A stretch of 47,668 bases of DNA from a virus. The position numbers were made by a program, and so were the translations under genes. How positions within the stretch are numbered: the stretch's first letter is position 1; each line of letters begins with the position of its first letter. The stretch is taken from positions 1 to 47,668 of IMG/VR virus record IMGVR_UViG_3300037157_000019; one strand, given 5' to 3'. Shown piece by piece: positions 1,627 to 30,914 of the stretch. The notes beneath the pieces were generated by a model that was not told the origin of the DNA, ran no database searches, and saw only the letters and a list, made by a program, of their open reading frames with translations.

Positions 1627-2051
1627 AGGACCAACCTCATTCTCAAACCGTCGGTCTGCGGTTCGTAGTAATCTTTCAGCATAGCGACGACAAGATACCC
1701 GCTCTTGAGATACAGGATCTGAGCGTCGACATTGTCCTGCTTGACTGTGAGGTCAATCTGGGTTTCCGTCGGTTGGTAGTAATTCCTGATCTCGGCGAGT
1801 AACCATCGGGCGTGTCCCAGCCCCCGATATTCCTCCTTCGTGGCGATCTGCCAGATGTACGCTCGACCAGGGCGGTGCTCCACAATGGCGTAAGCGACGA
1901 TATCATCCACGCAGTTGACGAAGACGTCGTCTTCCTGAAGATGACGAAGGAACTCAGCCCTGGGCGGGACTTCAATCCCAGAGAAGCAGGCGTAACTCAT
2001 CGCAAGCAGTTTGTCCGCATAGACAGCCTTCATCTCGTTAGTTAGTTTCAC
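1623..2051 (-). CDS. GNAT-family N-acetyltransferase
   Basis: The protein of 142 residues matches the acetyl-CoA-dependent GNAT fold. Around residues 68-90 lies IWQIATKEEYRGLGHARWLL, carrying the motif A signature R-G-x-G-x-A that binds the acetyl-CoA pyrophosphate. It is followed by a beta strand (IDLTVKQDN) and the typical end motif AQILYLKSGY (A-x-x-L-Y-x-x-x-G-[FY]). The start is a GTG at 2051 with GGAAGG seven bases upstream; it overlaps the upstream gene by 14 nt. An alternative ATG six codons downstream lacks a good ribosome site. The substrate is unknown. Phage GNATs can modify host or phage proteins or DNA-linked groups, but no evidence here decides. Confidence 0.85.
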   Translation of the reverse strand: MKLTNEMKAVYADKLLAMSYACFSGIEVPPRAEFLRHLQEDDVFVNCVDDIVAYAIVEHRPGRAYIWQIATKEEYRGLGHARWLLAEIRNYYQPTETQIDLTVKQDNVDAQILYLKSGYLVVAMLKDYYEPQTDGLRMRLVL

Positions 2052-2361
2052 GGAACCGCCTTCCTTCCCGTTTCAGCCTTGGCTTATCCAACGTATACCC
2101 TGCGGGATCTATCGTTAGCACGGGTTCGATTTTCCCATCATGTGTATGCAGAGCGACGAACTTCTGTGTCGCCCAGTCGATTTTCTCCGCCGTCGGGGGA
2201 GTCGGACCGATCAACATCTGGTGGCACTTCGTACAACTAATCTTCATGCGCTCGCCAGGATGTCCCCATTGATGCTGGGTGAATTCGAGAACGAGGTTCG
2301 GCGAGACCGTTGCGAGCCACTTCCGAAGATATGACTCACGAAGATTTTGGATCATTGCCAT
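2038..2361 (-). CDS. Hypothetical protein with CxxC knuckle (107 aa)
   Basis: It starts at 2361 (MAMIQNLRESYLRKWL) after AGGGGTGAACG. It has one clear Cys knuckle, SCTKCHQML, near residue 43, with nearby His residues (FTQHQWGHPG, ALHTHDG) that could complete a zinc site. The C-terminus is basic (DKPRLKREGRRFRETN). No family is recognised. It is the first gene downstream of the tmRNA gene in the leftward direction and its stop lies inside the start region of the GNAT gene. Confidence 0.6.
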   Translation of the reverse strand: MAMIQNLRESYLRKWLATVSPNLVLEFTQHQWGHPGERMKISCTKCHQMLIGPTPPTAEKIDWATQKFVALHTHDGKIEPVLTIDPAGYTLDKPRLKREGRRFRETN

Positions 2362-2377: not shown

Positions 2378-2689
2378 TTTGCTGGGATTCTGTTGCCAGG
2401 TTCCCAGCGGACCCCGCTACGCTTTAGGCGTGAGCAGCAAAGGCTTTGACGTTAGTCTTAGCATTTGTGATTTCCGTGTCCTGTTGACGGTGGCCACAGC
2501 ATCCCGTACGGTCCAACGCCCTCATCATCCCCATCGATACCATGACGCCCCCATCAAAGTCACCCGAGTAGGGTTACCCGCTTTTAAGTAGCGTACGCTC
2601 TCGCGGACGAAGTCGGGTGACTTTGGTGGAGGCGGCGGGAGTCGAACCCGCGTCTGGCAATGACTACAACGCCTTCATACCGTAATAAC
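2378..2689 (-). ncRNA. ssrA: Circularly permuted (two-piece) tmRNA
   Basis: Read on the minus strand, the acceptor piece comes first. A T-arm GCGGG-TTCGACT-CCCGC (2651-2635) is followed by CGCCTCC (2634-2628) and A-CCA ending at 2624, the typical tmRNA 3' end. A 71 nt intervening segment follows (2623-2553), closed by a perfect 12 bp inverted repeat AAAGTCACCCGA (2556-2567 with 2613-2624). The coding piece then starts at 2552 with GGGGGCG, which pairs fully with CGCCTCC, followed by the hallmark ATGGTATCGATGGGG. ACCGTA in the coding piece can pair with TACGGT in the acceptor piece. A tag frame from GCT at 2462 encodes AKTNVKAFAAHA and TAA (2426-2424), followed by a GCTGGGA/TCCCAGC hairpin (2381-2408). 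The outer ends are approximate. Its role is ribosome rescue and peptide tagging. Confidence 0.85.
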
Positions 2690-2914
2690 TTATACCAATC
2701 TCGGTGCTGCGACCGTCTGGTAATAAACCTTGTCGCCAATCACCACGTACTCACCCATAAGATGTTCATTCACCACAGAGCACTGAATGATGTCCACCGT
2801 GTCCAGGGATGCTATCATCAGTTCGAGCATGTCAAGCGGATGGATTTTGATGACGCTCCCATTCTCAACGGCTCTGCCGATTAACGCCTGAGTCTCTGCA
2901 ACGTAGTTTTTCAT
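2690..2914 (-). CDS. Hypothetical protein (74 aa)
   Basis: The start at 2914 (MKNYVAETQALIGRAVENGS) has a near-perfect ribosome site, TAGGAGGACT, and this decides it over a longer in-frame start. The protein is mixed alpha/beta and acidic (DMLELMIASLDTVDIIQCSVV, then GEYVVIGDKVYYQTV), consistent with a small globular protein. The family is not recognised. Its stop codon at 2690 directly abuts the acceptor piece of the tmRNA, so the two may be co-transcribed and the tmRNA cut out by RNases. Confidence 0.7.
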   Translation of the reverse strand: MKNYVAETQALIGRAVENGSVIKIHPLDMLELMIASLDTVDIIQCSVVNEHLMGEYVVIGDKVYYQTVAAPRLV

Positions 2915-2935
2915 AGTCCTCCTAAAACTTTCGGG

Positions 2936-2968
2936 GCGGGGGTCCATCGGTCTAGAGTACGACCCCGC
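2936..2968 (-). other. Hairpin in the 5' leader of the 74-aa gene
   Basis: GCGGGGTC pairs with GACCCCCGC (one bulged base) around a loop of about 16 nt. It lies in the 139 nt gap between two leftward genes. On the transcribed strand it is followed by CCCGAAAGTTTT, so a weak terminator or a leader structure are both possible. Nothing else is seen in the gap apart from a small CGCTA/TAGCG hairpin. Confidence 0.4.
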
Positions 2969-4232: not shown

Positions 4233-6245
4233 CTATTTCTTGTAGTAGAAACCTTCGTACCCTTCAGACTTCAGTACGACTCCCATACCCTGTGCCCACT
4301 CAGGAATTATACACATACAGGCCAGCAGTGTGTCAAGGTTTAATTTCGAACCGATGAGTGACTCGGCCACGATTTCGTCGTGGATGGTCATCAGGATTCG
4401 GAAGCCCGCCTTCTCCGCTTCGAACATACCCGACAATAGCAAATCCCGAGCGATAGCCTGGACGACGTTTTCAACAATCAGCCCGCCATACAGGCGTCCT
4501 ATCCGAGAACCCTTAGAATCATACTGAGTGAAGTTAACCTGTTCCGTCGGGCGACCGAATGTCCTGTCGATCACGACGATGGGGTTGAAGTAGTGGAGAC
4601 AGCGGCCTGAAGGCAGTTTGATCTTCAGAACCCTGGGGTCCCTTCCATCAACGATGCAACCTTTCACATAAACGCATATATTTGACTTCACCGCACGGAT
4701 AGCCGCCGTATTGAACTCTTTCCACAGATCGGGAATCTCGGGGTACGTCTCGCGGAATCCGTAAACGCACTCTTTCGCTTCTTTCTCGGTTAAAGTCATA
4801 CCTGCGGTTGCAGCGAAGTCAATGAACTTCTCCCAACCCATGCCGAAGCCACATCCAAGAATTTGAATCTTTCCCTTATCGCGATGCGCCTTCGTGACCT
4901 CGCTCATCGGAATGCCCAGTTGTCGGCTCATGCACTCTTTATACAAGTCTATGCCATTTGCATAGGCGTCGAGCATCGCCGTACACCGCGCTAAAGCGGC
5001 GAGTACACGACTCTCGATCTGGGCGAGATCACCGACGTCCAGTTTGTAGCCGGGAGTTGCGATGAACGAACATCGGATCGTCGATGCCACGAGATTCATC
5101 GGCGTAAACGGCGAGTAGATCTTCTTGCCGAGCCGAATCGCCCGAGCGTAGATATCAAGCCGCTTCGTAGTGTCTTTCTCCCACGAATACGCGAGGACAT
5201 TGCGGTCGGGTTTGAATAGGTTCTGCAACTGGACGCCGCGTCCTGACCATCGGCCCGTGTGTGCGCCGTGATAGATGAACTGATCACGGAGCCGCCCATC
5301 AATCCCCATGCGGGCGAGAATTGATTCTAGTTTTTTATAAGCCGAACCACCCAACTTTTGCTTGAGTTCGAGTATTTGTCTGACCAGTGGCTTGAGAGTA
5401 TGCCCAGGCTTAAGAGCCTCTTCGACATGCTCTTTGTCAAGGGAATCGTGAGGGTACCCCCGATCTTTGAGCCATCCCAGAAGTTGATCTCGGCTATTAG
5501 GATTTTCCAGACCTGTGTTGGCTTTGATTTCGAAGAGGATCCCGTCCGCTTCGGCTTCGGCGAGTTTCTTTGCGTTCGTGACGTAGGCTTCATCGATATA
5601 CACTCCTGTGTCGTTCATCCGCTGGTCGAGTTGCCAGGCACGGAATTCTTCATCCGTCATCGGGCAGTTCAACGCTACGGCAGCGTGATACGCATCCCGT
5701 TCAGCACGGACGTCCTGCAGACAGTAGTCGCAGAACTTCTGCCACTCTTCGGGATGGCTGTTCCAGTCTTTGTAGTAAGTAGGCTCGGCTCCCGCCTTCA
5801 GCATTTTCTTCGTGGACTTGCTCGGCTCCGAAAAGAGTTTCACACCCCGCTTCGCCCCAGTCTCGTGGATCTTCTTCTCGGCGAGGCCTAGGGCCTTGGA
5901 TGCTCGGTCCAAACCAATCGGGAGAGACATGTATGCGCAGAGGACCGAAGGATCGAACCACTCTCCCTGCGGGACCGCAATCCCGTTCTGGAATTCCAGG
6001 ATGTCTTTCTCGAAATTATAGTTCCACGCACCCTTGCGAATTTCAGGGTCGAGGAACGCGGCCCGTAGTTCAGCGGGCATCTCTTCGCCCGTCCAGATCT
6101 TCCAGAGTTTCGGTTCTTCGTCATTCAGGGCATAGGCCATCATGAGCGGCTGGGTCGAGGGATCCTTGGCATAGCGATCCAGACCGACGTCTCGCAGCTT
6201 GATGTGGGACCGCGTCTCGAAATCAGTCCAAAGTCGTTGGATCAT
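4233..6245 (-). CDS. polA: DNA polymerase, family A, with 3'-5' exonuclease domain
   Basis: The 670 aa protein is the phage replicative polymerase. The N-terminal DnaQ-like exonuclease has motif I TDFET (D8, E10), motif II NYNFEKD (D81) and motif III CLQD (D178). The polymerase domain has motif A GDLAQIESRV (D406), motif B R455-x3-K459-I-Q-I-L463-G-C-G-F467-G and motif C IHDEIV (H622, D623, E624). Leu463 is at the position of E. coli PolA Phe762, and Phe467 replaces the usual Tyr766. No 5'-nuclease domain is present, as usual for phage forms. The start at 6245 is set by the ATGA overlap with the upstream gene; ribosome binding is weak, so translation is probably coupled. It acts with the primase-helicase and ssDNA-binding protein encoded upstream. 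Confidence 0.95.
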   Translation of the reverse strand: MIQRLWTDFETRSHIKLRDVGLDRYAKDPSTQPLMMAYALNDEEPKLWKIWTGEEMPAELRAAFLDPEIRKGAWNYNFEKDILEFQNGIAVPQGEWFDPSVLCAYMSLPIGLDRASKALGLAEKKIHETGAKRGVKLFSEPSKSTKKMLKAGAEPTYYKDWNSHPEEWQKFCDYCLQDVRAERDAYHAAVALNCPMTDEEFRAWQLDQRMNDTGVYIDEAYVTNAKKLAEAEADGILFEIKANTGLENPNSRDQLLGWLKDRGYPHDSLDKEHVEEALKPGHTLKPLVRQILELKQKLGGSAYKKLESILARMGIDGRLRDQFIYHGAHTGRWSGRGVQLQNLFKPDRNVLAYSWEKDTTKRLDIYARAIRLGKKIYSPFTPMNLVASTIRCSFIATPGYKLDVGDLAQIESRVLAALARCTAMLDAYANGIDLYKECMSRQLGIPMSEVTKAHRDKGKIQILGCGFGMGWEKFIDFAATAGMTLTEKEAKECVYGFRETYPEIPDLWKEFNTAAIRAVKSNICVYVKGCIVDGRDPRVLKIKLPSGRCLHYFNPIVVIDRTFGRPTEQVNFTQYDSKGSRIGRLYGGLIVENVVQAIARDLLLSGMFEAEKAGFRILMTIHDEIVAESLIGSKLNLDTLLACMCIIPEWAQGMGVVLKSEGYEGFYYKK

Positions 6246-6676
6246 AATTTTTCTACCATCAATTGCACAAACTCTCGAAGTTCGGGTGAATACTGAAACC
6301 ACTCACCTGATAGTCGGTATTCATTAAAACGAGAATGCAGTCGGTCCTCCTGCCAGTCTTTCAGAGACATTTCTGTCAAAATCAGTTCGAGGGTAAGCCT
6401 CTCCGCATTGGCGGTTTGTAACGTTCGCAATCTAGCGTGAGGGGTGTCTGACTTTCCAATCTTTATGACGCCCCTACTTTTGTCAGCAATGAAATAAGTA
6501 CACGGAGTCGTTATTCCTCGTCGCACACAAATCCGTTCTAGGATCTCCGCTGCACCGAGCCCCGCGCTTTGTTCGTGAGAGACGTCCAATCCTACGTGCA
6601 ACCCTCGCGCTAGCGCCTGAGACATCAAAGTCAAGGCCCAATCGCGCTGTCCTTTGGGAATCAGATTATTCGACAT
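6242..6676 (-). CDS. T5orf172/GIY-YIG-like DNA-binding protein
   Basis: The 144 aa protein carries a C-terminal half typical of the T5orf172 (GIY-YIG-related) domain: CTYFIADKSRGVIKIGKSD is the strand-turn-strand GIY-YIG-like core. It is followed by HARLRTLQTANAERLTLEL, with the conserved Arg and the LQ-x-x-N segment, then EDRLHSRFNEYRLSGEWF, with the catalytic-type H-x-x-[FL] and GEWF motif. The N-terminal 70 residues form helices of unknown role. The start at 6676 follows AAGGAGA and overlaps the primase-helicase gene by 11 nt. It could be a nicking endonuclease or a DNA-binding replication accessory. Its position between two replication genes favours either a mobile endonuclease or a recruited repair enzyme. 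Confidence 0.75.
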   Translation of the reverse strand: MSNNLIPKGQRDWALTLMSQALARGLHVGLDVSHEQSAGLGAAEILERICVRRGITTPCTYFIADKSRGVIKIGKSDTPHARLRTLQTANAERLTLELILTEMSLKDWQEDRLHSRFNEYRLSGEWFQYSPELREFVQLMVEKL

Positions 6677-8795
6677 TAGGAATCTCCTTCTTTTCGTGAT
6701 TTGGTAACGCCCATACCCATTTCTTCTCTCCATCAAGTGTACTCTCTGTTGATTTAACTTTCAAGTCAGACTTAACCTGCTTGACTAGGGTTTCTCCAAA
6801 CCCCAAACCCGTGGCCGTGTCTTGCATGAATTTGGCAGGTTGAGGCCCTTTTTCAAGGGCGGTGACCATCCACGTAAGGCACTTATCTGACTTCGTTATC
6901 TTCGTAGGTTTATCGCCAGGCATTAAATCCGTCATTGAGATGGACGAAGAGAGACCCCACTTAATCTTTCCAATCTCTGTTTCTTTTCCGTTAATAAAAA
7001 TCATCTCTCCGACAGTTTCATAAGAGAGACTCAACCCCGCATTGGCGAGATTAGATTTCATCGGAGTCATATACCGTAATCCTTCTTCGTCCTTCGATTC
7101 CATAAAACGCCATGCGGAGCGTATACACCCAACAACTGCCATCGCACCCCCTGCTGAAGCAATAGCCTCAACATCGGTCCGTTTATTCGGATGGGTGACT
7201 ATGATGATCGCGGCATTGAACTCGCGTGCGAGATCTCCGAGGGGTGTCAAAGCTGAACGGACGTCTTGCTCTTTGTTGCCATTCAGTTTGCCAAGATGAT
7301 TCAACAGCGGGTCTATGATGACCAGTTTAAGATTTGGGTTATCTACAAAAGCATTACGCAAAGCAGGTAAGTCTGTGTCAAGAGAAAATTGCTTTACACC
7401 ATCAACCCCCGTAGTGGTTTCTACGATGCCCACTCTAGCCAAGTCCGCTTTCGCCGCCATCAGTCGGGGGACGAGGGTATCAGAGGCAGCATCTTCTGAT
7501 GAAAAAACCAAGACATCCATAACAGGATAATTATTGGAACAATCAGGGAAGGGTGATGCTGTCGTCACCCGTGCCGCAACATCCATCGTAATAAGGCCCT
7601 TACCAATTCCGGGATGTCCGAGAAAAAGCGTTAATTTTCCAAGGGCGATTCGATTCTCCCAGAGCCACGTAATAATCTCGGGCTTGATCTCGCTCGCCTT
7701 CTGAACGTTTAGTTTCATAGAGGCGGATGCACCGGGCGAGGTCACTTCCACATTCGTATGAAAGAAAAATTTCTTTCCCGTTTGTTCTTGAAGCAGTTTA
7801 TGGTAGTCAGAGAAATGCTTATCGCAACAATCCGCTGACGAATGAAAACATTTAAATCCTGGAGTTCCGTCAGCGGTAAGAAAAATCGCGTACGCATGCT
7901 CAGGATTAAAAGGACACGAGTCTACGTGCCACATCAACCCGCCACCTGTTTGCTGTTGGGCTTCGCTATAGTTCAATCCATAGAACTCTAAAAAAGCTAC
8001 CATCTTATCGGTCGTTACTGGGGGTAATGCAGTCTGGATTTGGCTCTTATTTTTCTTGATAATAATACCCGCGGGCACGAGGGTGGTCAATAGTTCAAGC
8101 GAAACGGGGATGATCTCTTCGGGCACTCGACGAAGTGCAGAACGTCGATGCGGCCTGTCGGGCGTTGCTTCTCCTTTACAAGCCAGAGTACCGTACGCTT
8201 TAGTAATCCGATTCGGATCATGGACGGCGGTGTCAATCTTTACCTTGTCGTCAGAGAATTTCTTGTCGAGATGTTTTAGGACAGATCGAACTGCGGCATC
8301 GACTTCCGCCGTATTAGGGAGATCCAACTTGTAGAGTGCGTGATACCCGTTGCCCGAATCTGCCGTAACAGGCGAGGGGAATCCCCTACTGGCCAAGTGG
8401 TTCACCACCTTCTGAAGAGTTTCCAAGGCATAAAGTTTTTCTTCATCCGTGGAAGATATCCCTGATGGCCGTACAGGGTCGGCATCGATTAACATCCAAT
8501 CTCTTCGAACTATATCTTGACCGCTTGTAGTGGCTTTTGCAGGGGCCAGTTTATTGGAACAGCGAGCGAGAAGTGCGGGATTACAACTGTTGAGCGTATA
8601 ATAAATGGCAGGGTGCTTCCCGTCCTGCTCGGATATTGCTTGAGCGGCTTTCTCAAGGTCGTCGAACCAACCACTGAGGGTGGCTTTTGAATTCGAATGT
8701 TTCGGAATGCGAACTTCGATCACCTTCGGGTTTGGATGCAATATCATCGCGGCCACAACCCCGCTAGGTGCCAGAACGGTCGAAGTATTTGCCAT
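6666..8795 (-). CDS. Primase-helicase (AEP-like primase + RepA-type AAA helicase)
   Basis: The 709 aa protein joins a primase-like N-terminus to a hexameric-type helicase. The N-terminal part has RRDWMLIDADPVRP (D-x-D near residues 104-106), DSGNGYHALYKL (about 146-157) and DTAVHDPNRITKAYG (about 188-202), consistent with archaeo-eukaryotic primase motifs. A Cys/His segment (CPFNPEH near 294, FKCFHSSADCC near 314) may bind zinc. The ATPase has Walker A GHPGIGKG (393-400), Walker B LVIIDP (D495) and a sensor-like VTHPNKR, as in RepA/AAA_25 helicases. The C-terminal 90 residues look like a winged helix. The start is placed at 8795 because GAGAGGAGAAAT precedes it; the longer in-frame start at 8831 would begin inside the repeat array. 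Confidence 0.9.
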   Translation of the reverse strand: MANTSTVLAPSGVVAAMILHPNPKVIEVRIPKHSNSKATLSGWFDDLEKAAQAISEQDGKHPAIYYTLNSCNPALLARCSNKLAPAKATTSGQDIVRRDWMLIDADPVRPSGISSTDEEKLYALETLQKVVNHLASRGFPSPVTADSGNGYHALYKLDLPNTAEVDAAVRSVLKHLDKKFSDDKVKIDTAVHDPNRITKAYGTLACKGEATPDRPHRRSALRRVPEEIIPVSLELLTTLVPAGIIIKKNKSQIQTALPPVTTDKMVAFLEFYGLNYSEAQQQTGGGLMWHVDSCPFNPEHAYAIFLTADGTPGFKCFHSSADCCDKHFSDYHKLLQEQTGKKFFFHTNVEVTSPGASASMKLNVQKASEIKPEIITWLWENRIALGKLTLFLGHPGIGKGLITMDVAARVTTASPFPDCSNNYPVMDVLVFSSEDAASDTLVPRLMAAKADLARVGIVETTTGVDGVKQFSLDTDLPALRNAFVDNPNLKLVIIDPLLNHLGKLNGNKEQDVRSALTPLGDLAREFNAAIIIVTHPNKRTDVEAIASAGGAMAVVGCIRSAWRFMESKDEEGLRYMTPMKSNLANAGLSLSYETVGEMIFINGKETEIGKIKWGLSSSISMTDLMPGDKPTKITKSDKCLTWMVTALEKGPQPAKFMQDTATGLGFGETLVKQVKSDLKVKSTESTLDGEKKWVWALPNHEKKEIPNVE

Positions 8796-8812
8796 ATTTC
8801 TCCTCTCACTTC

Positions 8813-9053
8813 CACAGGGGTCGTTTTTCAAAAGCTCAGCTATATGGAGCGACCCCTGTCAAAAACGACTCCTGTCAAAAAGTGTCACTTGACCACAGGG
8901 GTCGTTTTCGTCCGTAAGAGCGACCCCTGTATCTAAATACTATATATTACTTATATATAGAGGACAGGAGTCGCTTTATGACTAGAACAAGGGACCTCTT
9001 TAAAAAAGCGACCCCTGTCCTTCTTAGTGCACCCCCCAGGGGTCGTTTTTAAA
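8813..9053. repeat. Eight-copy ACAGGRGTCGYTTTT array; candidate replication origin or operator
   Basis: Eight copies of a 12-15 bp element lie in this 240 bp gene-free stretch. Plus orientation: 8814-8828, 8893-8908, 8963-8977 and 9037-9050. Minus orientation: 8849-8860, 8861-8876, 8920-8930 and 9003-9019. Several neighbours face each other, making inverted pairs with CGACCCCTGT arms. Two copies carry GAGTC or GACTC in place of GGGTC/GACCC. A strongly AT-rich core (8931-8960, with TATATATTACTTATATATA) lies in the middle. The array sits between the ssDNA-binding gene's terminator and the primase-helicase gene. Iterons flanking an AT-rich segment fit an origin; operator sites controlling the replication operon are the main alternative. 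Confidence 0.75.
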
Positions 9054-10642: not shown

Positions 10643-10777
10643 ATGCATGACGATCCCCAAGGCGAGCGCGTAGCGGGCTGGTACCACGTCGGCTTCACCG
10701 CCGCATACGTCATCGCTGCGATATGGCATCTCAAGGGGGCGCTAGAACATTGGAGGAGAAATGGGCGTAAACATTGA
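10643..10777 (+). CDS. Small membrane protein (44 aa)
   Basis: MHDDPQGERVAGWYHVGFTA continues as AYVIAAIWHLKGALEHWRRNGRKH. The ATG at 10643 has GGAG six bases upstream. One hydrophobic segment (about residues 16-30) is flanked by an acidic N-terminus and a basic C-terminus, so it probably spans the membrane once with its C-terminus inside. It overlaps the next gene by 17 nt, and the ribosome site of that gene lies inside it. It may anchor or regulate the glycan enzymes encoded downstream; this is inferred from position only. Confidence 0.55.
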   Translation: MHDDPQGERVAGWYHVGFTAAYVIAAIWHLKGALEHWRRNGRKH

Positions 10778-11456
10778 TCGTCGACTCCCCGGACGGCCAG
10801 TCATATTGTTAGTAAGTTGCGCCCCGTATCGCACCAACGGATTCGACCAAGTGGTTCGAGATACCTGGCTCAAAAGATGGGGCCATCTTGTCGATTGTAG
10901 GTTTGTTCTAGGTCGTGGTTGTACCGACCCGAAGCCCGATGAAGTTATCGTTGACGCAGATGACGGATACCAACACACAGCCGAGAAACAACAAGCCGTC
11001 GTCCGATGGGCGCTTGACGAGGGATATACCCATCTTCATATAGCCTGCTCAGACACATACACCCCTGTTCCTCGCCTGATGACTTCTGGATACGCGGAAC
11101 ACGAGGCGGTTGGCTGTGTCGTGTTTAATTGGAACGGCGAGGGTTGGCTTGGCGGTGGATGCGGGTATTGGCTGGGTCCCAAGGCATCGAGATTCATAGC
11201 GGACAACGCTCCCGAGTCCTGGGCGGCGGATTGCGCGACGGGGCATGCGATGCGTAAAGCGGGCATCCCGATGACGCACGACACGAGATATTGGACAGAC
11301 AACGGCGGCGGGGGAGCATTCCCTTACTGGGAAAAAGATATTTGGCAGAAGGATGGAGGGTACGTCTCGGTCCACATGTCCTCACGAGATAGGGGTGGTT
11401 ACGACCCTAAGTGGATGGAAGAGTGCCACGCAAGTTATCTGGGAGGGGCGAAATGA
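10761..11456 (+). CDS. GT31-like glycosyltransferase
   Basis: The 231 aa protein resembles the beta-1,3-galactosyltransferase (GT31-like) fold. It has an opening strand (PVILLVSCAPYRTNGFDQ) with the family-typical R-x-T-W (VRDTWLKRW) and a D-D-x-Y-x-H/N-x-x-x-K segment (DADDGYQHTAEKQQAVVRW). A degenerate metal-site motif follows (LHIACSDTYTPV where D-x-D is usual), then the acceptor-site block GWLGGGCGYWLGPKA and a C-terminal E/D-D motif (SWAADCATGHAMRKAGI). The start is at 10761 after GGAGGAGAA. It is homologous to both halves of the tandem protein encoded at 15470-17053. Sugar donor and acceptor are unknown. Confidence 0.75.
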   Translation: MGVNIDRRLPGRPVILLVSCAPYRTNGFDQVVRDTWLKRWGHLVDCRFVLGRGCTDPKPDEVIVDADDGYQHTAEKQQAVVRWALDEGYTHLHIACSDTYTPVPRLMTSGYAEHEAVGCVVFNWNGEGWLGGGCGYWLGPKASRFIADNAPESWAADCATGHAMRKAGIPMTHDTRYWTDNGGGGAFPYWEKDIWQKDGGYVSVHMSSRDRGGYDPKWMEECHASYLGGAK

Positions 11457-12608
11457 TTTGTCGAAGTTGCCGCGGCACGTCTATAACTCATCGAATCCTT
11501 TCTCTGAGAAGCATGCCGCTAGTCAACAGACTGCTGGACGGCCAGTACGACACCTGCGAGAGTCATTCGCTGGAAGTCATGTACTGTGACCATTGCTCTC
11601 TCGGTCAACTCCGAGACATCGTGCCTCCGATGGAGATGTTCAGCGAGTATTCTTTCTACTCTTCTGTCATGACTCCTATTGTGGAGCGTGCACAGGAATT
11701 AGTTACTCGACTTATCAAAGAGTGCTGGCCACTCCATGTAATGGAAGTCGGTAGCAATGACGGATATCTCCTCCAATTCTACCATCAAAAAGGTATCTCC
11801 GTGTTAGGCGTAGACGTTGCACGCGGACCCGCGAACACGGCGGCGCTCAAGGGTGTACCTACGGTTCAAGAGTTATTCTCGCTGGCATTGGCAAAGACGT
11901 TGCCTAAGGCGGATATCATCCACGCCAATAACGTCCTCGCGCATTGTCCCGACGTCAATGATGTTGTCGCGGGCTTCGCTGAGGTTCTGACGCAAGAGGG
12001 CACCGTTATCGTTGAAGTTCCTTACTTAGGCGACCTCGTAACCCAGGCAACGTTCGTTCACGGTCTACCACGAGCACATTTTCTATTTCTCTAAGAAGTC
12101 GCTAGTCATGCTGTTCCAGCGTCATGGGTTGAAGATTACCAAGATAGAGTCCTTGCCTGACGTTCTCGGCGGCTCTCTTCGTATCTTCGCGGGCAAGACA
12201 GGCCGCACGGTCCCGGGGATTGACACCAACTTGGAACAGGTCTCCGCTCTCCAGACTCGTACCGATGAATACGCCAAAGATCTTAAAGGCGCTCTGGTCC
12301 GGCTCAAGAACGCAGGCCGCAGTGTGTGGGGATTTGGCGCGGCGGCGAAGGCTACAGTCTTCTTGAACTATGCAGGTATTGACCAGGAACTCATCGAGGC
12401 CGTGGCCGATGACACGCCAGTCAAGCAGTACAAGTTCATCCCTGGCACAGGGATTCCGATTCGGAGCACCCAGGACTGGATCAAGAGTCAACCACAGCAT
12501 ACGTGCATCTTCACATGGAACTACGCGAACTACATCGCCCACAAGTATGCGCTGACGTACAAGGGAAATTTCTTCACCTCACGGATGCCAGGACTCATCG
12601 TATTATGA
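11453..12608 (+). pseudogene. SAM-dependent C-methyltransferase, frameshifted
   Basis: Two frames make up one Methyltransf_13/23/14-type sugar C-methyltransferase. The first (11453-12094) has a Cys-rich N-terminal zinc part (CRSCRGT, MYCDHCSLGQL), the SAM site VMEVGSNDGYLL and HANNVLAHCPDVNDVV. It ends at EVPYLGDLVTQATF and then runs to a stop. Reading one base later from about 12070 restores YHEHIFYFSKKSLVMLFQ and continues to 12608 with the C-terminal domain (GGSLRIF, VWGFGAAAKATVFLNYAGI). The break is one extra base in TTCGTTCACGGTC near 12050-12070. The family normally is one chain of about 400 residues, so this is a frameshift, a sequencing error or, less likely, a recoding site. ATGA overlaps link it to both neighbours. 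Confidence 0.8.
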
Positions 12609-13699
12609 ACTGCGACGTTCTCATCGTAGGCGCAGGTTTCGCGGGACTGGTCATGGCGGAACGTTTGAGCAGTGTCGGAAAGAAATGTATCATCGTCGAG
12701 AAGCGAGCGCACGTTGGCGGAAACGCCCATGACGAGTATAACACTGACGGGGTGCTGGTTCATCCATACGGCGGTCACCTCTTTAGTACGAACTCGGACA
12801 GAGTGTTCAACTACCTCTCCCGATTCACCGAGTGGATCCCTGCGATCTACACCGCGAAGAGTTACACCCAGGGAAAACTTTGGAGTTTCCCTATCAATCT
12901 CCAGACTTATGAACAACTCATAGGTCACCCGAGCACGACTGAAGACATGGAGAAGTACCTCGCTGAACGGCGAGTGCCTATCGCGCATCCTCAGAACTCC
13001 GAGGAAGCTATCATCTCTCAGGTCGGCTGGGAACTATATGACATGTTCTACCGTGGATATGTCGAAAAGATGTGGGCGTGCTCCGCGAGAGATCTTGACC
13101 CTTCCGTCTGTCTGCGGATTCCGATCCGTATCACCCGAGACGACCGACGACTCGATGGGAAGTACACTTGCATGCCGAAGTATGGGTATGACGCGATGTT
13201 CCAACGACTCCTGGCGGCATCACCGCTGGTCGAAGTTTTGACAGGCGTGTCGTACGAACAGTTTCAGGGATCTATCAAGCACCTAGTCTATACGGGGTGC
13301 ATCGACCGTTTCTTCAACTACGAGTACGGCGTGTTGCCCTACCGCTCAATGCGGTTCGAGCACCAGACGTATGAACAGGATTTCTTTCAACCCACGGTCC
13401 AGGTCAATTATCCGAACGATTTCGATTTCACTCGTATCATCGAGATCAAGCATGTAACGGGACAGCAGTGTCCGAACACGACAATCGTGAGAGAATTTCC
13501 TGAAGCATTCACGCTCGGGAAAGAACCTTTCTACCCTGTCCTGTCTCCTGAATCGACGGCGACCTATGCGAAGTACAAGGTCCGAGCCGATGCGATTCCA
13601 GACATGACGTTCGTCGGGCGACTGGCGACGTTTAAGTATTTGCAGATGGATCAGGTAGTTGGAATGGCCCTGCGAGCAGCAGACAAATTGGGGGGATGA
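12605..13699 (+). CDS. glf: UDP-galactopyranose mutase
   Basis: The 364 aa flavoenzyme converts UDP-galactopyranose to UDP-galactofuranose. It begins MNCDVLIVGAGFAGLVMAER, the Rossmann FAD site (G-x-G-x-x-G). Typical blocks follow: VEKRAHVGGNAHDEYN, HPYGGHLFSTNSDRVFNYL, RGYVEKMWACSARDLDPSVC, then FNYEYGVLPYRSMRFEHQTY and the C-terminal VGRLATFKYLQMDQVVGMAL. Length matches the family. The start at 12605 overlaps the methyltransferase stop as ATGA. With the epimerase and glycosyltransferases around it, it implies that a galactofuranose-containing glycan is built or altered during infection. Confidence 0.95.
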   Translation: MNCDVLIVGAGFAGLVMAERLSSVGKKCIIVEKRAHVGGNAHDEYNTDGVLVHPYGGHLFSTNSDRVFNYLSRFTEWIPAIYTAKSYTQGKLWSFPINLQTYEQLIGHPSTTEDMEKYLAERRVPIAHPQNSEEAIISQVGWELYDMFYRGYVEKMWACSARDLDPSVCLRIPIRITRDDRRLDGKYTCMPKYGYDAMFQRLLAASPLVEVLTGVSYEQFQGSIKHLVYTGCIDRFFNYEYGVLPYRSMRFEHQTYEQDFFQPTVQVNYPNDFDFTRIIEIKHVTGQQCPNTTIVREFPEAFTLGKEPFYPVLSPESTATYAKYKVRADAIPDMTFVGRLATFKYLQMDQVVGMALRAADKLGG

Positions 13700-14634
13700 T
13701 GAAGACGCTGATAACTGGAGGTAGCGGCTTCGTAGGAAAAAGATTATGTACGGCTCTCCTGGGTCAAGGGCACGAGGTACGTTGCCTTAGTCGGGGAGTA
13801 ATACCCGTCCACGAAGATGTGGAGTGGATACAAGGTGACTTCTCCGACGCGGAGTTGGTTAGCAGCGCCGTTCGGGGTGTGGATGTGATTTACCATCTTA
13901 TATCTACGACGCTTCCATCATCCTCCAACAGAGACGTGAAGTTCGATCTGGTATCAAACGTATTGCCGACTCTACACATGTTGCAATCGGCCAGACTCAA
14001 CGGGGTTAAGCGAGTGATCTACACATCTTCTGGCGGCGCGGTATACGGAGCGCCCAAACGTTGCCCAATACGGGAAGAGGATAGTACAGACCCCATATGC
14101 GCCTACGGCGTTCACAAACTGACCGTAGAGAAATACTTGGGTTTGTTCTATCACGCCTGGGGACTAGATTATCGGATCCTGAGAATCTCGAATGCTTATG
14201 GCACGGGCCACACGGTAGGAAAGAACTACGGAGCGGTCTCGCAGTTTATCCACAACGCGACGAATCATAGGCCCATAGAAATCTGGGGAGACGGGACGAC
14301 CGTACGAGACTACGTTCACGTAGACGACGTCGTCAAGGCCCTTGTCCTAGCGTTACGGCACGCAGGCCCCTCCAGGACGTTAAACATCGGAACCGGGAAA
14401 GGTCATACCCTGCTAGACCTGGTTTCTATCATTGAAGAAGTTCTAGGTGAGAGGGTAGAAGTTTCGTTCTCGGAAGCACGAACGGTCGATGTCGCAAACA
14501 ACGTGCTCGACATCACCAAGGCAGTCGATGAGTTGGGTTGGTGCCCGACTAGGAACCTTGAAGAGAACATACAGGAAATGGTAAGGGGGAGCCATGAAGA
14601 ACGATCTCGTAGTGTCGTGTTGCCGAGGATTTGA
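13696..14634 (+). CDS. NAD-dependent epimerase/dehydratase (extended SDR)
   Basis: The 312 aa protein has the NAD site MMKTLITGGSGFVGKRL (G-x-x-G-x-x-G), IQGDFSD and a D-V-I-Y-H-L-I-S strand, then YTSSGGAVYGAPK. The catalytic YGVHK (Y-x-x-x-K) follows, with RILRISNAYGTGHTVGK and GDGTTVRDYVHVDDVVKAL for the nucleotide-sugar part. This pattern fits a UDP-glucose 4-epimerase or a related UDP-sugar epimerase. In this setting it most likely supplies UDP-galactose to the mutase encoded upstream. The start overlaps the mutase stop; its end overlaps the next gene by 41 nt. The exact substrate cannot be read from sequence. Confidence 0.9.
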   Translation: MMKTLITGGSGFVGKRLCTALLGQGHEVRCLSRGVIPVHEDVEWIQGDFSDAELVSSAVRGVDVIYHLISTTLPSSSNRDVKFDLVSNVLPTLHMLQSARLNGVKRVIYTSSGGAVYGAPKRCPIREEDSTDPICAYGVHKLTVEKYLGLFYHAWGLDYRILRISNAYGTGHTVGKNYGAVSQFIHNATNHRPIEIWGDGTTVRDYVHVDDVVKALVLALRHAGPSRTLNIGTGKGHTLLDLVSIIEEVLGERVEVSFSEARTVDVANNVLDITKAVDELGWCPTRNLEENIQEMVRGSHEERSRSVVLPRI

Positions 14635-15463
14635 CTGGCCCCTGGTTAGATACTACGCTAAGTCTCTCGTGATGTCTGGGTTCGACGGACGAAAGATCAT
14701 GTTCGTAGATCGGATGCCAGAAGAGTCCAAAAACGAACTTCGGAATCTAGGGTTTGAGGTAATCGACTTCACCGTCGACGGGATTAACGATACCAATTTC
14801 CTTTCACAAGGACGGTTCGTCTCGATGCTGGAGTTCTTGAAGGACCGATATCAGGAGTTTAGATACATCATCTGGACGGATGTGGGGGACGTGATCTTCC
14901 AGACGGACCCGTCGGTCTGGTTGGAGAGGAACATCGGACAGCATCACCTGGTCGCGGCGAACGAATGCTGGCGCATCAAGGATGAAGGCTTCAACGACAT
15001 GTTGCTCCGAGATTCCATGTTTGACGATGGTTACGCGCAAGTGCGGGAGCACGAGGCCTTGTGTTGTGGAACATTAGGGGGAACGTCGGAGTGGGTGTAT
15101 AGAACATTTCTAGATGTTTACACCTGGGTTCGAGATACGATGGTTCGTAAGGGTAGGTTCAACAACTACTCCCCTATCGACCAGTCGGTGTTGAACTATT
15201 TCCTTCGGCAATCACCCTACAAAGAGGTGACGACAGTCCCACGGATGTCCGAGGGTTTTACGGCGACCTGTTCGGCCTTTCGAGGCAACGGCTTCAACAG
15301 CCACATCACCTTCAACCGTGATTTGTTGACGGATGCGACTCCGATCTTCGACAAAGGATCTGCCACGGTCTTCACCCCTAACGGCAAGATGCCGTTCTCG
15401 ATAGTCCATCAGTACAATCGGGATGCGGAGTGGAAGGCGCTGATCGACAAGAAATATCAGTGA
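14594..15463 (+). CDS. GT-A-type glycosyltransferase-like protein
   Basis: The 289 aa protein begins MKNDLVVSCCRGFDWPLVRY and has a nucleotide-diphospho-sugar-transferase-like layout. FVSMLEFLKDRYQEFRYIIW leads into TDVGDVIFQTDP, a D-x-x-D metal/donor site at about residues 96-107. Later CCGTLGGTSEWVYRTFLDVY and YSPIDQSVLNYFLRQSPYKE form the acceptor half, and SIVHQYNRD carries the C-terminal His often seen in these enzymes. A ribosome site AAGGGGGAGCC precedes the ATG, which lies inside the end of the epimerase gene. It probably transfers a hexose in the same pathway; donor and acceptor are unknown. Confidence 0.8.
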   Translation: MKNDLVVSCCRGFDWPLVRYYAKSLVMSGFDGRKIMFVDRMPEESKNELRNLGFEVIDFTVDGINDTNFLSQGRFVSMLEFLKDRYQEFRYIIWTDVGDVIFQTDPSVWLERNIGQHHLVAANECWRIKDEGFNDMLLRDSMFDDGYAQVREHEALCCGTLGGTSEWVYRTFLDVYTWVRDTMVRKGRFNNYSPIDQSVLNYFLRQSPYKEVTTVPRMSEGFTATCSAFRGNGFNSHITFNRDLLTDATPIFDKGSATVFTPNGKMPFSIVHQYNRDAEWKALIDKKYQ

Positions 15464-15469
15464 GGAGCC

Positions 15470-22375: not shown

Positions 22376-24370
22376 GTGACAGTAGAAAAGTTAGCGGCGC
22401 TGTTTGAGAAGCATCTTCACGACAAAAATTACCAGCACCGCGATATGACTCCCGAGGAATTTCTGGCGAGAGCAAAGACTAGTTTCTTCCGTCTTACTTC
22501 TGACCAGCAGATGAAAGTTGTAACGATTTGTGATCTCAAGGGCATCACGAAGGACGCAGATATCTTTCGCTACCGATTCTTGGCCCAGACCAATCTTTTC
22601 TTCTTGTGCCGTCTTTTAGAAAAATACTGCGACCTAAGCGATCAGGAATATACTTGGATAGACGGTACCGTTCATACGACGCATGAATCGATTTGCAATG
22701 AGTTCTTTGTAAAAAAAGATCCGACTAGGGCGACGTTCAAAGAATTTGCCGCCAAGAACAACTACATCGACCAGAAGGAACGCCTACTCCTAGTCCCTAG
22801 AGGCGGGTTCAAATCCTCAATGAACATGGCGGACTGTGTTCAGTGGATCATCACCTACCCAGAAGTCACGATCCTAGTACTGACGGGCGTGCTCGACCTT
22901 GCCAAGGATTTCGTCAGCGAGATCAAGGGACATTTCACTCTGAATGACGGCGGACTGACAGGTCTCTTCATTAAGAAGAAATGCCTAAGTCCCCGCGTCA
23001 TGCTCGACGGGACAGAGAGTATGTTCCAGGTACTCTTCCCCGAGCACTGCATTGAGAAGGATGATGGTAAAGGTTACGAATATCAGACTCCTGCAGTCTC
23101 TGTGGTTGAGAAGGAATGCACGGTCTTCGCCGCCTCTATCGAGCAGAACTTGGCTGGTTGGCACGTCTGTGTTATGAAACTGGACGACGTCGTGACTAAC
23201 GAGAACTCACAGACGGTTGACCGCATCGTCAATATCAACAAGCAAGTCAGCATCAATGCTGCGATGTTGCACCCCTTCGGATTCTACGACAAGATCGGGA
23301 CTTGGTACGACTCACAAGATACTTACGGCCAGGACATCCTCAACCTCAAGAAGTGGGTCGAGGAGGGCGGGGCTCCTGAGCAGTACCCGATGAAGGTTTA
23401 CATCCGTGCCGCGTGGTGGCCTAACGCCGCCGCACGAGCAATCGGCAAAATCGGTGCCGAGATGTCTGAGGCCGATTACGACTTCTGGTTCAACGTCGAC
23501 GATAACGAACACTCGTTGACTTATAAGTTACTGCTGCACAAGAAGAAGACCGATCCCTGGTTCGCGATCAAGTATCTGAATGATCCGACCCTAATGCACG
23601 TCATCAAGTTCCCTCGGGAACTCCTGGTGCGCAAGACGGTCCCTGCCGCGATGTTGCCGAATATGGGCATGATCGTAACGTGCGTGGATACCGCATACTC
23701 GACTAAGTCGTGGGCGGATTACACGGTCATCTTGACGGCGCTGATCTACGGTGGACGCTTCTACATCATTGACATGAAGCGAGACCGATACAACGAAGCT
23801 GAATTACCCGCTATGATCGCGGCGACTGCACTCCAGTGGAAACCCCGAAGGATGTGCATCGAGGAATCCGTCGGTGTGAAGTGGATGGGTCGTGAGGCCT
23901 ATCACGAGATGGACAAATTGAAAGTGCGAGTGCCGATTGAATGGGTCTCGCTTGGTCAAGGCAAGAAGACTAAGTCGAAATCTGAGAAGGCGGGTCCCGT
24001 ACTTCGGTATCTGGAGGAAGGTAAATTACTCTTCCTAAATACCTGTCCGAGTCTCGACGAACTCTACGACGAGTTGTCGAAGTTCGGTACCGCTGCATCA
24101 ATGCACGATGATATCGTGGATGCGCTGGCTATCCTCGTAAAACAGTTCTGCGCATACGCGGAGAATGAGGCGAAGGTTTCGGCGGCTCAGGATCAGTACT
24201 TCGATCCCAAGCAGCAGGCGGCATACAAACAAGTTTACGAGGGTAAGGCAATAGACCAGTCGCAGTTTGCGGCGTTGGCTTCGGGATTCCCTGACCAGTC
24301 AGGTGAACCGATGCCCACAGGTATAGGTCTTGGCGAGTTTCACGATCCTCTAGCGGATTTATTTCAATGA
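22376..24370 (+). CDS. terL: Terminase large subunit
   Basis: The 664 aa protein powers DNA packaging. The ATPase has a variant Walker A, LLLVPRGGFKSSM (K146), and after it strands such as VTILVLTGVLDLAKDF. The C-terminal RNase H-like nuclease shows GMIVTCVDTAYSTKSWADY (first Asp), RRMCIEESVGVKWMG (Glu) and SMHDDIVDALAI (last Asp). The start codon is GTG at 22376 after GGAGGAGTC. Length is slightly above the usual 450-600. Its product docks on the portal encoded next. No intron interrupts it, unlike the portal and capsid genes. Confidence 0.93.
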   Translation: MTVEKLAALFEKHLHDKNYQHRDMTPEEFLARAKTSFFRLTSDQQMKVVTICDLKGITKDADIFRYRFLAQTNLFFLCRLLEKYCDLSDQEYTWIDGTVHTTHESICNEFFVKKDPTRATFKEFAAKNNYIDQKERLLLVPRGGFKSSMNMADCVQWIITYPEVTILVLTGVLDLAKDFVSEIKGHFTLNDGGLTGLFIKKKCLSPRVMLDGTESMFQVLFPEHCIEKDDGKGYEYQTPAVSVVEKECTVFAASIEQNLAGWHVCVMKLDDVVTNENSQTVDRIVNINKQVSINAAMLHPFGFYDKIGTWYDSQDTYGQDILNLKKWVEEGGAPEQYPMKVYIRAAWWPNAAARAIGKIGAEMSEADYDFWFNVDDNEHSLTYKLLLHKKKTDPWFAIKYLNDPTLMHVIKFPRELLVRKTVPAAMLPNMGMIVTCVDTAYSTKSWADYTVILTALIYGGRFYIIDMKRDRYNEAELPAMIAATALQWKPRRMCIEESVGVKWMGREAYHEMDKLKVRVPIEWVSLGQGKKTKSKSEKAGPVLRYLEEGKLLFLNTCPSLDELYDELSKFGTAASMHDDIVDALAILVKQFCAYAENEAKVSAAQDQYFDPKQQAAYKQVYEGKAIDQSQFAALASGFPDQSGEPMPTGIGLGEFHDPLADLFQ

Positions 24371-29210: not shown

Positions 29211-30914
29211 ATGTCCTTTTCACCAGCCGGGAATCAGTTAAGTAATCTCCCGCAATCCACTGTAAAGTATTCATAGTACTTGCCCTGAAATACAGAGATT
29301 GACAAATGCTGGTAGTTGTAGTAAAGTATGACAAACGCTTCAGGGAGAACTTGAAGGCACAGACGCCGTTCGTTCGATGCAGTCAGAGACTTGATTTGCC
29401 TAAGAACAGCGGAAATCAATACGAAATGTTTATGTACGTTCCGTTGGCTGCGTTGACCACACAGACCACAGAAGGTACGGTAGGCAGTTCGTTGAGCGTC
29501 AACGTCCTCAACACCACGGCAACGATTGGTGAGTACGCTAAACAAAATTGGCGTATTGTTTTTATAAACTTGACTATATCCGTCAAAGTCTGATAGTATC
29601 AGAAGAGACGGAGGAAAGACCTAAGATGATGACTAATGATAAAACGAAGTGGGCACGACTAGCGGCGTTTATTGATGCTGAGGGTTGCATAGGGGTTTCC
29701 CGAACGATCCTACACACTAGCACGGGCAAAGACTACTGGGGTTACGACTTGAAGGTATCAGTTGCCAACACAAGCATGAAATTGATGCGGTGGTTGGTAC
29801 GATATTTTGGCGGCGAGTTTCGTCCTAAGCAAAAAGGCAAACTTGGCGTTAAACCATGTTTTGAATGGTTCGTAACAGGTGGTTACGAGAAGATAGAAAT
29901 CATTCTTCTTAGCACGCTTCCTTATCATATCATCAAGCGAGAGCAGGCGTTAATCGCACTGGAATGGGTTCGTATGCGAGGGCAAGAAAACCCTCAAAGA
30001 CGAGCAGAACTCCATAAAGCGTGTATGGCTCTCAATTCTGGGGACTCCCCAACGACTAATACGTCAAGCATCGATACTCCCGTATCGTAAAGATAGAGTC
30101 TGAACTGCATAGCGATATGCAGAGCGAGCCAAGGGTGATCTTGGTTTCCTAAACAAAATTGGATTACGCGAACTTCAGTTCGCTGAGTCTTGCGACAGCT
30201 ATCGATAATACGGTAGAAAATGTCGCGAAGGAGCTGTCGTATCAGTTGGGCGAGTCCCTGTCGGCTCTGGTCCGTGCGACTGCAGACGGTGCGAACAGCA
30301 TCGACTCCAGCGTCCTGATCGAGTTGGCTGCGACGACCACTGCTAGCTTCACTGCGTTGTCTCTGAGCCAAATCAGAAACAGCGTCCAGTCGCTGGCTGG
30401 CCGTTCCGTGAAGCCTTTCGCGAAGGATATGTTCGTAGGCGTCATCCACCCGTTCGCCCTCGGCGACGTGTTGGCTGACAACTCGAACGATTCCCCCATC
30501 GACATCCTGAAGCACACCGCTCAGGGTCAGATGACTATGGAAGACCTGATCAGCACCGACCTCGAAGATAGCATTGAGTTGCCTTCTTCAGGCGTGCGGT
30601 TCTTCCAGACCAACCTCGTCACCCAGACCGCGAACTATCAGGGTGTGACAGGGTTGACCGCGCTTCGGACCTACATCTTCGGGCAAGATGGTATCTTCTC
30701 CATCAACCTCGGAGCACAGAACGATACCACGTTCGGTGAAGGTCAGTGGCAGAACATCAAGTGCAACGTCGTGCAGAACGCCGCACCAACCGTTGCCGAT
30801 CCTGAAGGCTTAATTCCGGGTTGGACTTCGTATCGTGTACATTTTACCACGAGTTTAGGACCGGATACCACAATTCGCATCAGAGAAATAGACGCGGCCA
30901 GCGCAATAAGTTGA
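29211..30914 (+). CDS. Major capsid protein (N4-gp56-like), interrupted
   Basis: Reading MSFSPAGNQLSNLPQSTVKY (29211-29270), then DKRFRENLKAQTPFVRCSQR and on to TATIGEYA (29330-29539), then DYANFSSLSLATAIDNTVEN to the stop (30162-30914), gives about 340 residues of an N4-gp56-like capsid protein. Typical blocks are the LP/YDK opening, NSGNQYEMFMYVPLAAL, TEGTVGSS and DYANFSSLSLATAID. Two things break it. A group I intron with a LAGLIDADG gene lies at 29540-30161, and a 59 nt gap with an immediate TAG (29274) and direct repeats lies near the 5' end. If the gap is not crossed, translation could start at ATG 29306 (MLVVVVKYDKRF), but its ribosome site is weak. Confidence 0.83.
29262..29329 (+). 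repeat. 9 bp direct repeats flanking a 50 nt insert in the capsid gene
   Basis: GTAAAGTAT occurs at 29262-29270 and 29321-29329, 59 nt apart. The insert starts TCATAG, giving a stop two codons after the first TAT, and shifts the frame. AAGTA/TACTT can pair across the first repeat and stop. The insert also contains TTGACA-N17-TAAAGT (29299-29327), a promoter-like element. Joining the two TAT codons restores the capsid frame. Confidence 0.7.
29570..29599 (+). promoter_or_regulatory. Promoter of the intron-borne LAGLIDADG gene
   Basis: TTGACT (29570-29575), 18 nt spacer, TAGTAT (29594-29599). The start is predicted near 29606, 20 nt before the ATG and just before a GGAGGAAAG ribosome site. Confidence 0.55.
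29626..30090 (+). CDS. LAGLIDADG homing endonuclease
   Basis: The 154 aa protein starts MMTNDKTKWARLAAFIDAEG, with LAAFIDAEG as the LAGLIDADG catalytic helix (last acidic residue metal-binding) near residues 11-19. It continues CIGVSRTI and WWLVRYFGGEF-like secondary strands (RWLVRYFGGEFRPKQKGK). A YEKIEIILLSTLPYHIIKRE segment is typical of the C-terminal part. There is one motif, so it probably acts as a homodimer. The start at 29626 is chosen for GGAGGAAAGACCTAAG; the frame is open further upstream but without a site. It lies wholly inside the capsid intron, whose spread it should promote. Confidence 0.9.
   Translation: MMTNDKTKWARLAAFIDAEGCIGVSRTILHTSTGKDYWGYDLKVSVANTSMKLMRWLVRYFGGEFRPKQKGKLGVKPCFEWFVTGGYEKIEIILLSTLPYHIIKREQALIALEWVRMRGQENPQRRAELHKACMALNSGDSPTTNTSSIDTPVS

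Follow-up and report, generated by a model that had tools for sequence, protein, structure and literature searches.

Transfer-messenger RNA (tmRNA) has two roles, ribosome rescue and tagging for destruction, and which of the two matters is debated. In the permuted tmRNA families (RF04321; RF01849 for alpha, RF01850 for beta, and RF01851 for cyano), the gene order is acceptor piece, spacer, and coding piece. The RNA has a tRNA-like domain with a G3:U70 pair, a D-loop-like TCGA motif, and a 3′ hairpin with a ACCUnGnAACAGAA loop, and its tag reading frame starts with Ala and closes with a stop codon. The gene described here resembles these families in each of those features and differs from them in its tag: tags of the families end in −AA, whereas those of the window clade end in −HA, −GR, or −GM. 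In a published survey, 402 of 18,146 phage genomes were found to encode tmRNA; of the 133 unique structures among them, 53 were two-piece (PMC9004378). Permuted tmRNAs are encoded by the OM43 phage Melnitz and by marine phages (PMC9004378); however, a glutamine riboswitch and SAR11 affinity mark the Melnitz tmRNA, whereas our gene lies among leftward replication genes of a Tunturi_3-like phage, and an Rfam scan of the window gave no riboswitch. Caulobacter phage phiCbK and its relatives also carry a permuted tmRNA with a similar 3′ end, but phiCbK is a distinct and much larger phage whose tag, VAANDNDVVAFASAREAIAA, has a canonical end. The phiCbK record also contains a GOLLD RNA (L002:694-1180, minus strand; 165 bits) that overlaps a tRNA-Gly gene.

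The isolates Tunturi_3 (L140), Tunturi_4 (L139), and Tunturi_5 (L290) each contain one permuted tmRNA of the same gene form, and structural genes are common to Tunturi_3 and the window; their tags, in contrast, are long (25, 33, and 34 aa, respectively) and have the ends LAA/VAA/MAA. A tag ending in a charged residue (Lys) is possible in Carsonella ruddii, the only case known as of 2014 (PMC4131195). Carsonella, however, is a reduced endosymbiont with decaying ssrA and smpB, whereas the ending in the window clade is conserved across diverged phages. A preliminary description of the DNA studied here had proposed a two-piece tmRNA borne by a phage; that proposal holds, and RNAs of this kind had already been described (PMC9004378). 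What is new is their occurrence in Acidobacteriota-type phages and a conserved tag ending other than Ala-Ala.

Identity and structure of the locus

The window, meaning the whole stretch of DNA analyzed, is a 47,668-base IMG/VR virus record. The permuted tmRNA gene is located on its minus strand at 2729–2378; the preliminary description had given no strand for the element. The covariance search that it recommended was performed with cmscan and gave two matches above curated cut-offs: RF04321 (tmRNA_permuted) at 2684–2430(−), which scored 94.6 bits (cut-off 47), and RF01849 (alpha_tmRNA) at 2729–2378(−), which scored 72.8 bits (cut-off 50). ARAGORN, which is independent of cmscan, called a permuted tmRNA at 2333–2716(−) with the tag AKTNVKAFAAHA followed by a stop. 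The parts of the gene are as follows.

2624..2684, minus strand: acceptor piece (3′ tRNA-like piece), from the RF04321 and RF01849 alignments, ARAGORN, and stem coordinates
2553..2623, minus strand: intervening segment, 71 nt, with a closing stem of 12–13 bp, from coordinates and RNAfold
2378..2552, minus strand: coding piece, from the full-length RF01849 match to 2378 and acceptor covariation
2424..2462, minus strand: tag reading frame GCT..GCC TAA, encoding AKTNVKAFAAHA and a stop, from ARAGORN and the codon-position pattern
2381..2408, minus strand: 3′-terminal hairpin GCTGGGA-ACCTGGCAACAGAA-TCCCAGC, with a conserved loop and a stem that covaries between phages

The acceptor piece contains the T arm GCGGGTTCGACTCCCGC, the acceptor 3′ strand CGCCTCC (2628–2634), and ACCA with an encoded CCA (2624–2626); its 5′ end is uncertain and may lie as far upstream as 2716–2729. 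The coding piece, from 2552 down, contains the acceptor 5′ strand GGGGGCG (2546–2552), the D-loop-like ATGGTATCGATGGGG, the resume codon, the tag coding sequence, and the 3′ hairpin. These coordinates bear out the architecture given in the preliminary description: a CCA-ending acceptor piece precedes the coding piece, the two acceptor strands form a full stem with a G3:U70 wobble, the spacer is exactly 71 nt, and the tag frame consists of 12 codons plus TAA. The spacer stem reaches its perfect 12 bp when the final A of CCA is included; in the RNAfold structure it has 13 pairs, at −31.4 kcal/mol for the segment with three flanking nucleotides on each side. This segment would be expected to be cut out in processing.

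In another scan of the window gene the beta model (RF01850) was reported as a clan match with 66.8 bits, which is below its own cut-off. Most relatives reach no lineage cut-off, with alpha and beta scores near or below the cut-offs, and the merged model RF04321 is the only one passed by most of them. Because the scores conflict, placement of the gene in the alpha, beta, or cyano lineage was dropped.

The acceptor stem was compared in 19 related genes, and all seven pairs form in 19/19. Pairs 1, 2, 3 (G3:U70), and 7 are invariant, and pairs 4, 5, and 6 covary, with three to four pair types each. For the 10 distinct acceptor stems, 100% of cells are paired; the covariation score was 0.616 versus 0.114 in shuffles, a value reached by 0/500 shuffles, and covariation was far lower in slid controls. 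Pairing in the 3′-terminal hairpin, whose loop is ACCUnGnAACAGAA, is kept in related phages although the stem sequence varies between them. By this comparative evidence, selection on the RNA structure of the locus is shown. A chance match was ruled out by the covariance-model scores and E-values, by the acceptor and hairpin covariation, and by the codon-position signal described below. The reading of the locus as a permuted tmRNA borne by a phage, with its tRNA-like domain complete and its reading frame genuine, is supported.

Two relatives, L006 (9430–9470) and L268 (about 1555–1560), have ACTG in place of the ACCA of the others, and their 3′ CCA would therefore need to be added post-transcriptionally. 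The T loop of L006 is also shortened.

Genome neighborhood, related phages, and probable host

The tmRNA gene is part of a leftward gene block that also contains the DNA polymerase A (PolA) gene and a primase/helicase gene (6666–8831); the rightward block contains morphogenesis genes. The neighbors and landmarks are listed below.

2690..2947, minus strand: small ORF of 85 aa, upstream neighbor whose end adjoins the acceptor piece, no Pfam match
2038..2361, minus strand: ORF of 107 aa, downstream neighbor starting 17 nt past the coding piece, no Pfam match
4233..6302, minus strand: DNA polymerase family A, upstream (PF00476, phrog_17)
22376..24370, plus strand: terminase large subunit (TerL), 46% full-length identity to Tunturi_3
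30159..30914, plus strand: major capsid protein (MCP), C-terminal part, 80% identical to Tunturi_3 gp6

The major capsid gene (29306–30914) seems to be split, with an N-terminal part before about 29560 and a C-terminal part from 30159. Between these parts lies a homing-endonuclease-like ORF (29548–30090), which suggests an intron-like insert. A sugar cassette at 10761–17053, with a methyltransferase, a UDP-galactopyranose mutase (PF03275), an epimerase (PF01370), and galactosyltransferase-like proteins, had no match in the comparison with Tunturi_3.

In addition to TerL and MCP, the portal protein (56%) and further proteins match those of Tunturi_3 in order, and the syntenic morphogenesis genes are common to the window and Tunturi_3-like phages. 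The host of Tunturi_3 is Tunturiibacter psychrotolerans, a member of the Acidobacteriota (PMC11924767). From the structural genes shared with this one isolate, the window phage probably infects Acidobacteriota as well. The preliminary description had associated permuted tmRNAs with their classical bacterial lineages; the permuted tmRNA itself stands, but the likely host phylum is not one of those lineages. A host search by a single scan of GTDB genomes gave one phage contig only, its MAG bearing the label Bacteroidetes, and this placement was treated as possible mis-binning.

In the PolA relatives L004–L009 and L011, the permuted tmRNA follows polA downstream, at a distance of between a few hundred nt and 1.2 kb. 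By major capsid protein, 166 IMG/VR relatives were found. Of the related records (by MCP or PolA) that are 58 kb or longer, all that contain the locus (15/15) have the permuted tmRNA; the sole exception in this size class, G040, breaks off about 240 nt past polA. A 59.9-kb phage contig from a MAG bin has the gene too. The tmRNAs of Tunturi_3, Tunturi_4, and Tunturi_5 are missing from the annotation fetched, and tmRNA is unmentioned in the paper on these phages (PMC11924767). Many phages, these three isolated Acidobacteriota phages included, thus carry two-piece tmRNAs that are missing from deposited annotation.

This distribution bears on whether the gene is a host ssrA fragment, captured or in decay, or what is left of an attachment site. 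Such an origin would fit the frequent use of ssrA genes as integration sites (PMC9004378; PMC11915505), but we consider it extremely improbable: the gene is complete, selection acts on both its structure and its frame, every related long phage record containing the locus has it, and no integrase was recognized among the subset of window proteins scanned.

The phages would depend on SmpB from the host in the mechanism considered below; no SmpB was found in 19/19 phage records searched, and SmpB is present in 45/46 Acidobacteriota genomes (PMC11633108). Neither the window nor its close relatives yielded an RF-1-domain gene. RF-1-domain matches were seen in Tunturi_3, Tunturi_4, G013, and G020, and the Tunturi_4 gene (L136:43946-44293, minus strand), possibly ArfB-like, is directly upstream of its tmRNA. 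Only 8/46 Acidobacteriota genomes contain arfB (PMC11633108).

The tag peptide and its C-terminus

The window tag, AKTNVKAFAAHA, ends in AAHA, i.e., in −HA, and the classical hydrophobic-Ala-Ala C-terminus is absent from it. The other nine window-type tags are ATPKRAFAAAAGR, ATTEKPKAFAAAA, ATTEKPKAMSATAGM, AKTNTLAMGAAAGR, AETEKPRAFAAAAGR, AETKPLAMAAAAGR, ATTKPRAMAAAAGR, ATKPLTFAAAAGR, and AETKPLAFAAAA. Six of the ten end in −GR, one in −GM, one (the window) in −HA, and two in −AA; the last two, from L005 and L236, end in AAAA. The non-standard tag noted in the preliminary description is therefore reinforced by the relatives, since most tags of this phage clade have no terminal Ala-Ala.

Across the ten tags, codon positions 1/2/3 differ 0.30/0.24/0.66, and we therefore conclude that the tag frame is kept as a peptide. 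One neighboring frame stops at once (TGC TAA), and the codon-position pattern favors the annotated frame; alternative frames were therefore rejected. In eight −GR tags, the frequency of differences over the last six codons is 0, 0.09, and 0.56 at the first, second, and third codon positions; the Gly codons used are GGA, GGT, GGG, and GGC, and the Arg codons are CGC and CGG. Only six of the eight are unbiased, because the two from phages with other structural genes (L279 and L281) came from a pattern search that required this ending. The third-position differences show peptide-level selection on the −AAAAGR ending. Three further matches to the −AAAAGR pattern (L278, L282, and L284) were discarded because they look like protein-coding sequence rather than tmRNA.

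Most subclades of the PolA tree contain the −GR ending, which is therefore probably ancestral in the clade. In the same tree the window (−HA) is the sister of L004 (−GR), and its ending looks derived. It is a milder change than −GR, with the last Ala kept and the penultimate residue changed.

For background, 53 other viral permuted tmRNAs were gathered by T-arm patterns; their tags, taken from ARAGORN, which possibly favors Ala ends, terminate in Ala-Ala in 51/53 and in Ala in 52/53. Ala-ending tags make up 3/10 of the window-type set versus this background (Fisher p about 1.7e-6), a value that is descriptive only because the window-type phages share ancestry and their tag counts are not independent.

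Tags of clade 2 (the Tunturi_3 type) are 25–36 aa long and close with −AA, −MA, or −LA, preceded by hydrophobic residues. Those of L229–L235 and L237 are 26–36 aa; four share a YDxM...LVMA/LVLA-like pattern wholly or partly, and others have a basic SRKVR-type stretch in common with Tunturi_3.

Proposed role in ribosome rescue and in the fate of tagged chains

We favor, with some reserve, the view that the locus encodes a working two-piece phage tmRNA and that the tag is best read as making the rescued chains of the clade poor ClpXP substrates. The tmRNA would be transcribed along with the replication genes, its two pieces would be cut out by host tRNA-processing enzymes, and it would be charged with alanine by host AlaRS via G3:U70. 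With host SmpB and EF-Tu, it would free ribosomes stalled on damaged mRNA in infection. The tag C-terminus of the clade may have drifted from Ala-Ala to −GR, −GM, or −HA, and rescued chains would then be poor ClpXP substrates; the phage would regain ribosomes while its truncated proteins would enter ClpXP degradation in the host at less than the full rate. For the AAHA of the window only a partial effect would be expected, given its retained final Ala.

Among the elements recognized by ClpXP, the terminal Ala-Ala-COO− matters most, and KM rises when either Ala is altered (PMC7652416); for that reason our leading, though tentative, reading for the window-type clade is that ribosomes would be rescued with little efficient proteolysis of the tagged chains. 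In M. pneumoniae, C-terminal Lys or Arg gave a higher protein level and hydrophobic residues a lower one (PMC7246954). As counterpoints, the tag ending of the clade could be normal for its host, and 2/10 clade tags still have Ala-Ala.

More tentatively, this soil-phage lineage may have conserved its tag as a non-degron (−AAAAGR and derivatives), with rescue uncoupled from ClpXP proteolysis; tagged proteins would then be spared or differently routed. A clade with a kept tag frame but a different conserved ending would constitute a natural separation-of-function experiment.

The RNA could also be a plain two-piece tmRNA that reinforces normal trans-translation, with a tag that is still a degron for host ClpXP or for Tsp/Prc, Lon, or FtsH, though we find this rather doubtful. 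The AAAA endings of L005 and L236, the terminal Ala of the window tag, and the endings of every clade-2 tag would agree with it, and a host protease might accept the other endings. Against it, −GR is kept as a peptide through synonymous codon change with both terminal Ala residues gone, Ala-Ala-COO− dominates ClpXP recognition, and the sole charged precedent is that of Carsonella.

The RNA might instead act as a competitor that titrates SmpB or occupies stalled ribosomes, blocking host tmRNA, a role suggested for the DS6A tmRNA, which has no tag. We regard this as improbable, since a selected tag frame, an alanine identity pair, and the retention of both pieces would be needless in a pure competitor; in its favor, DS6A-type RNA inhibits tmRNA (PMC4131195; PMC11915505), and a distant relative, L012, has a tag-less RNA. 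This 82-nt, one-piece, tmRNA-like RNA (L012:6950-7031, plus strand; RF00023, 56.4 bits), also found in L269, is similar to the tmRNA of mycobacteriophage DS6A, which consists of the TLD only, and in L012 it ends directly at the start of the distant PolA gene.
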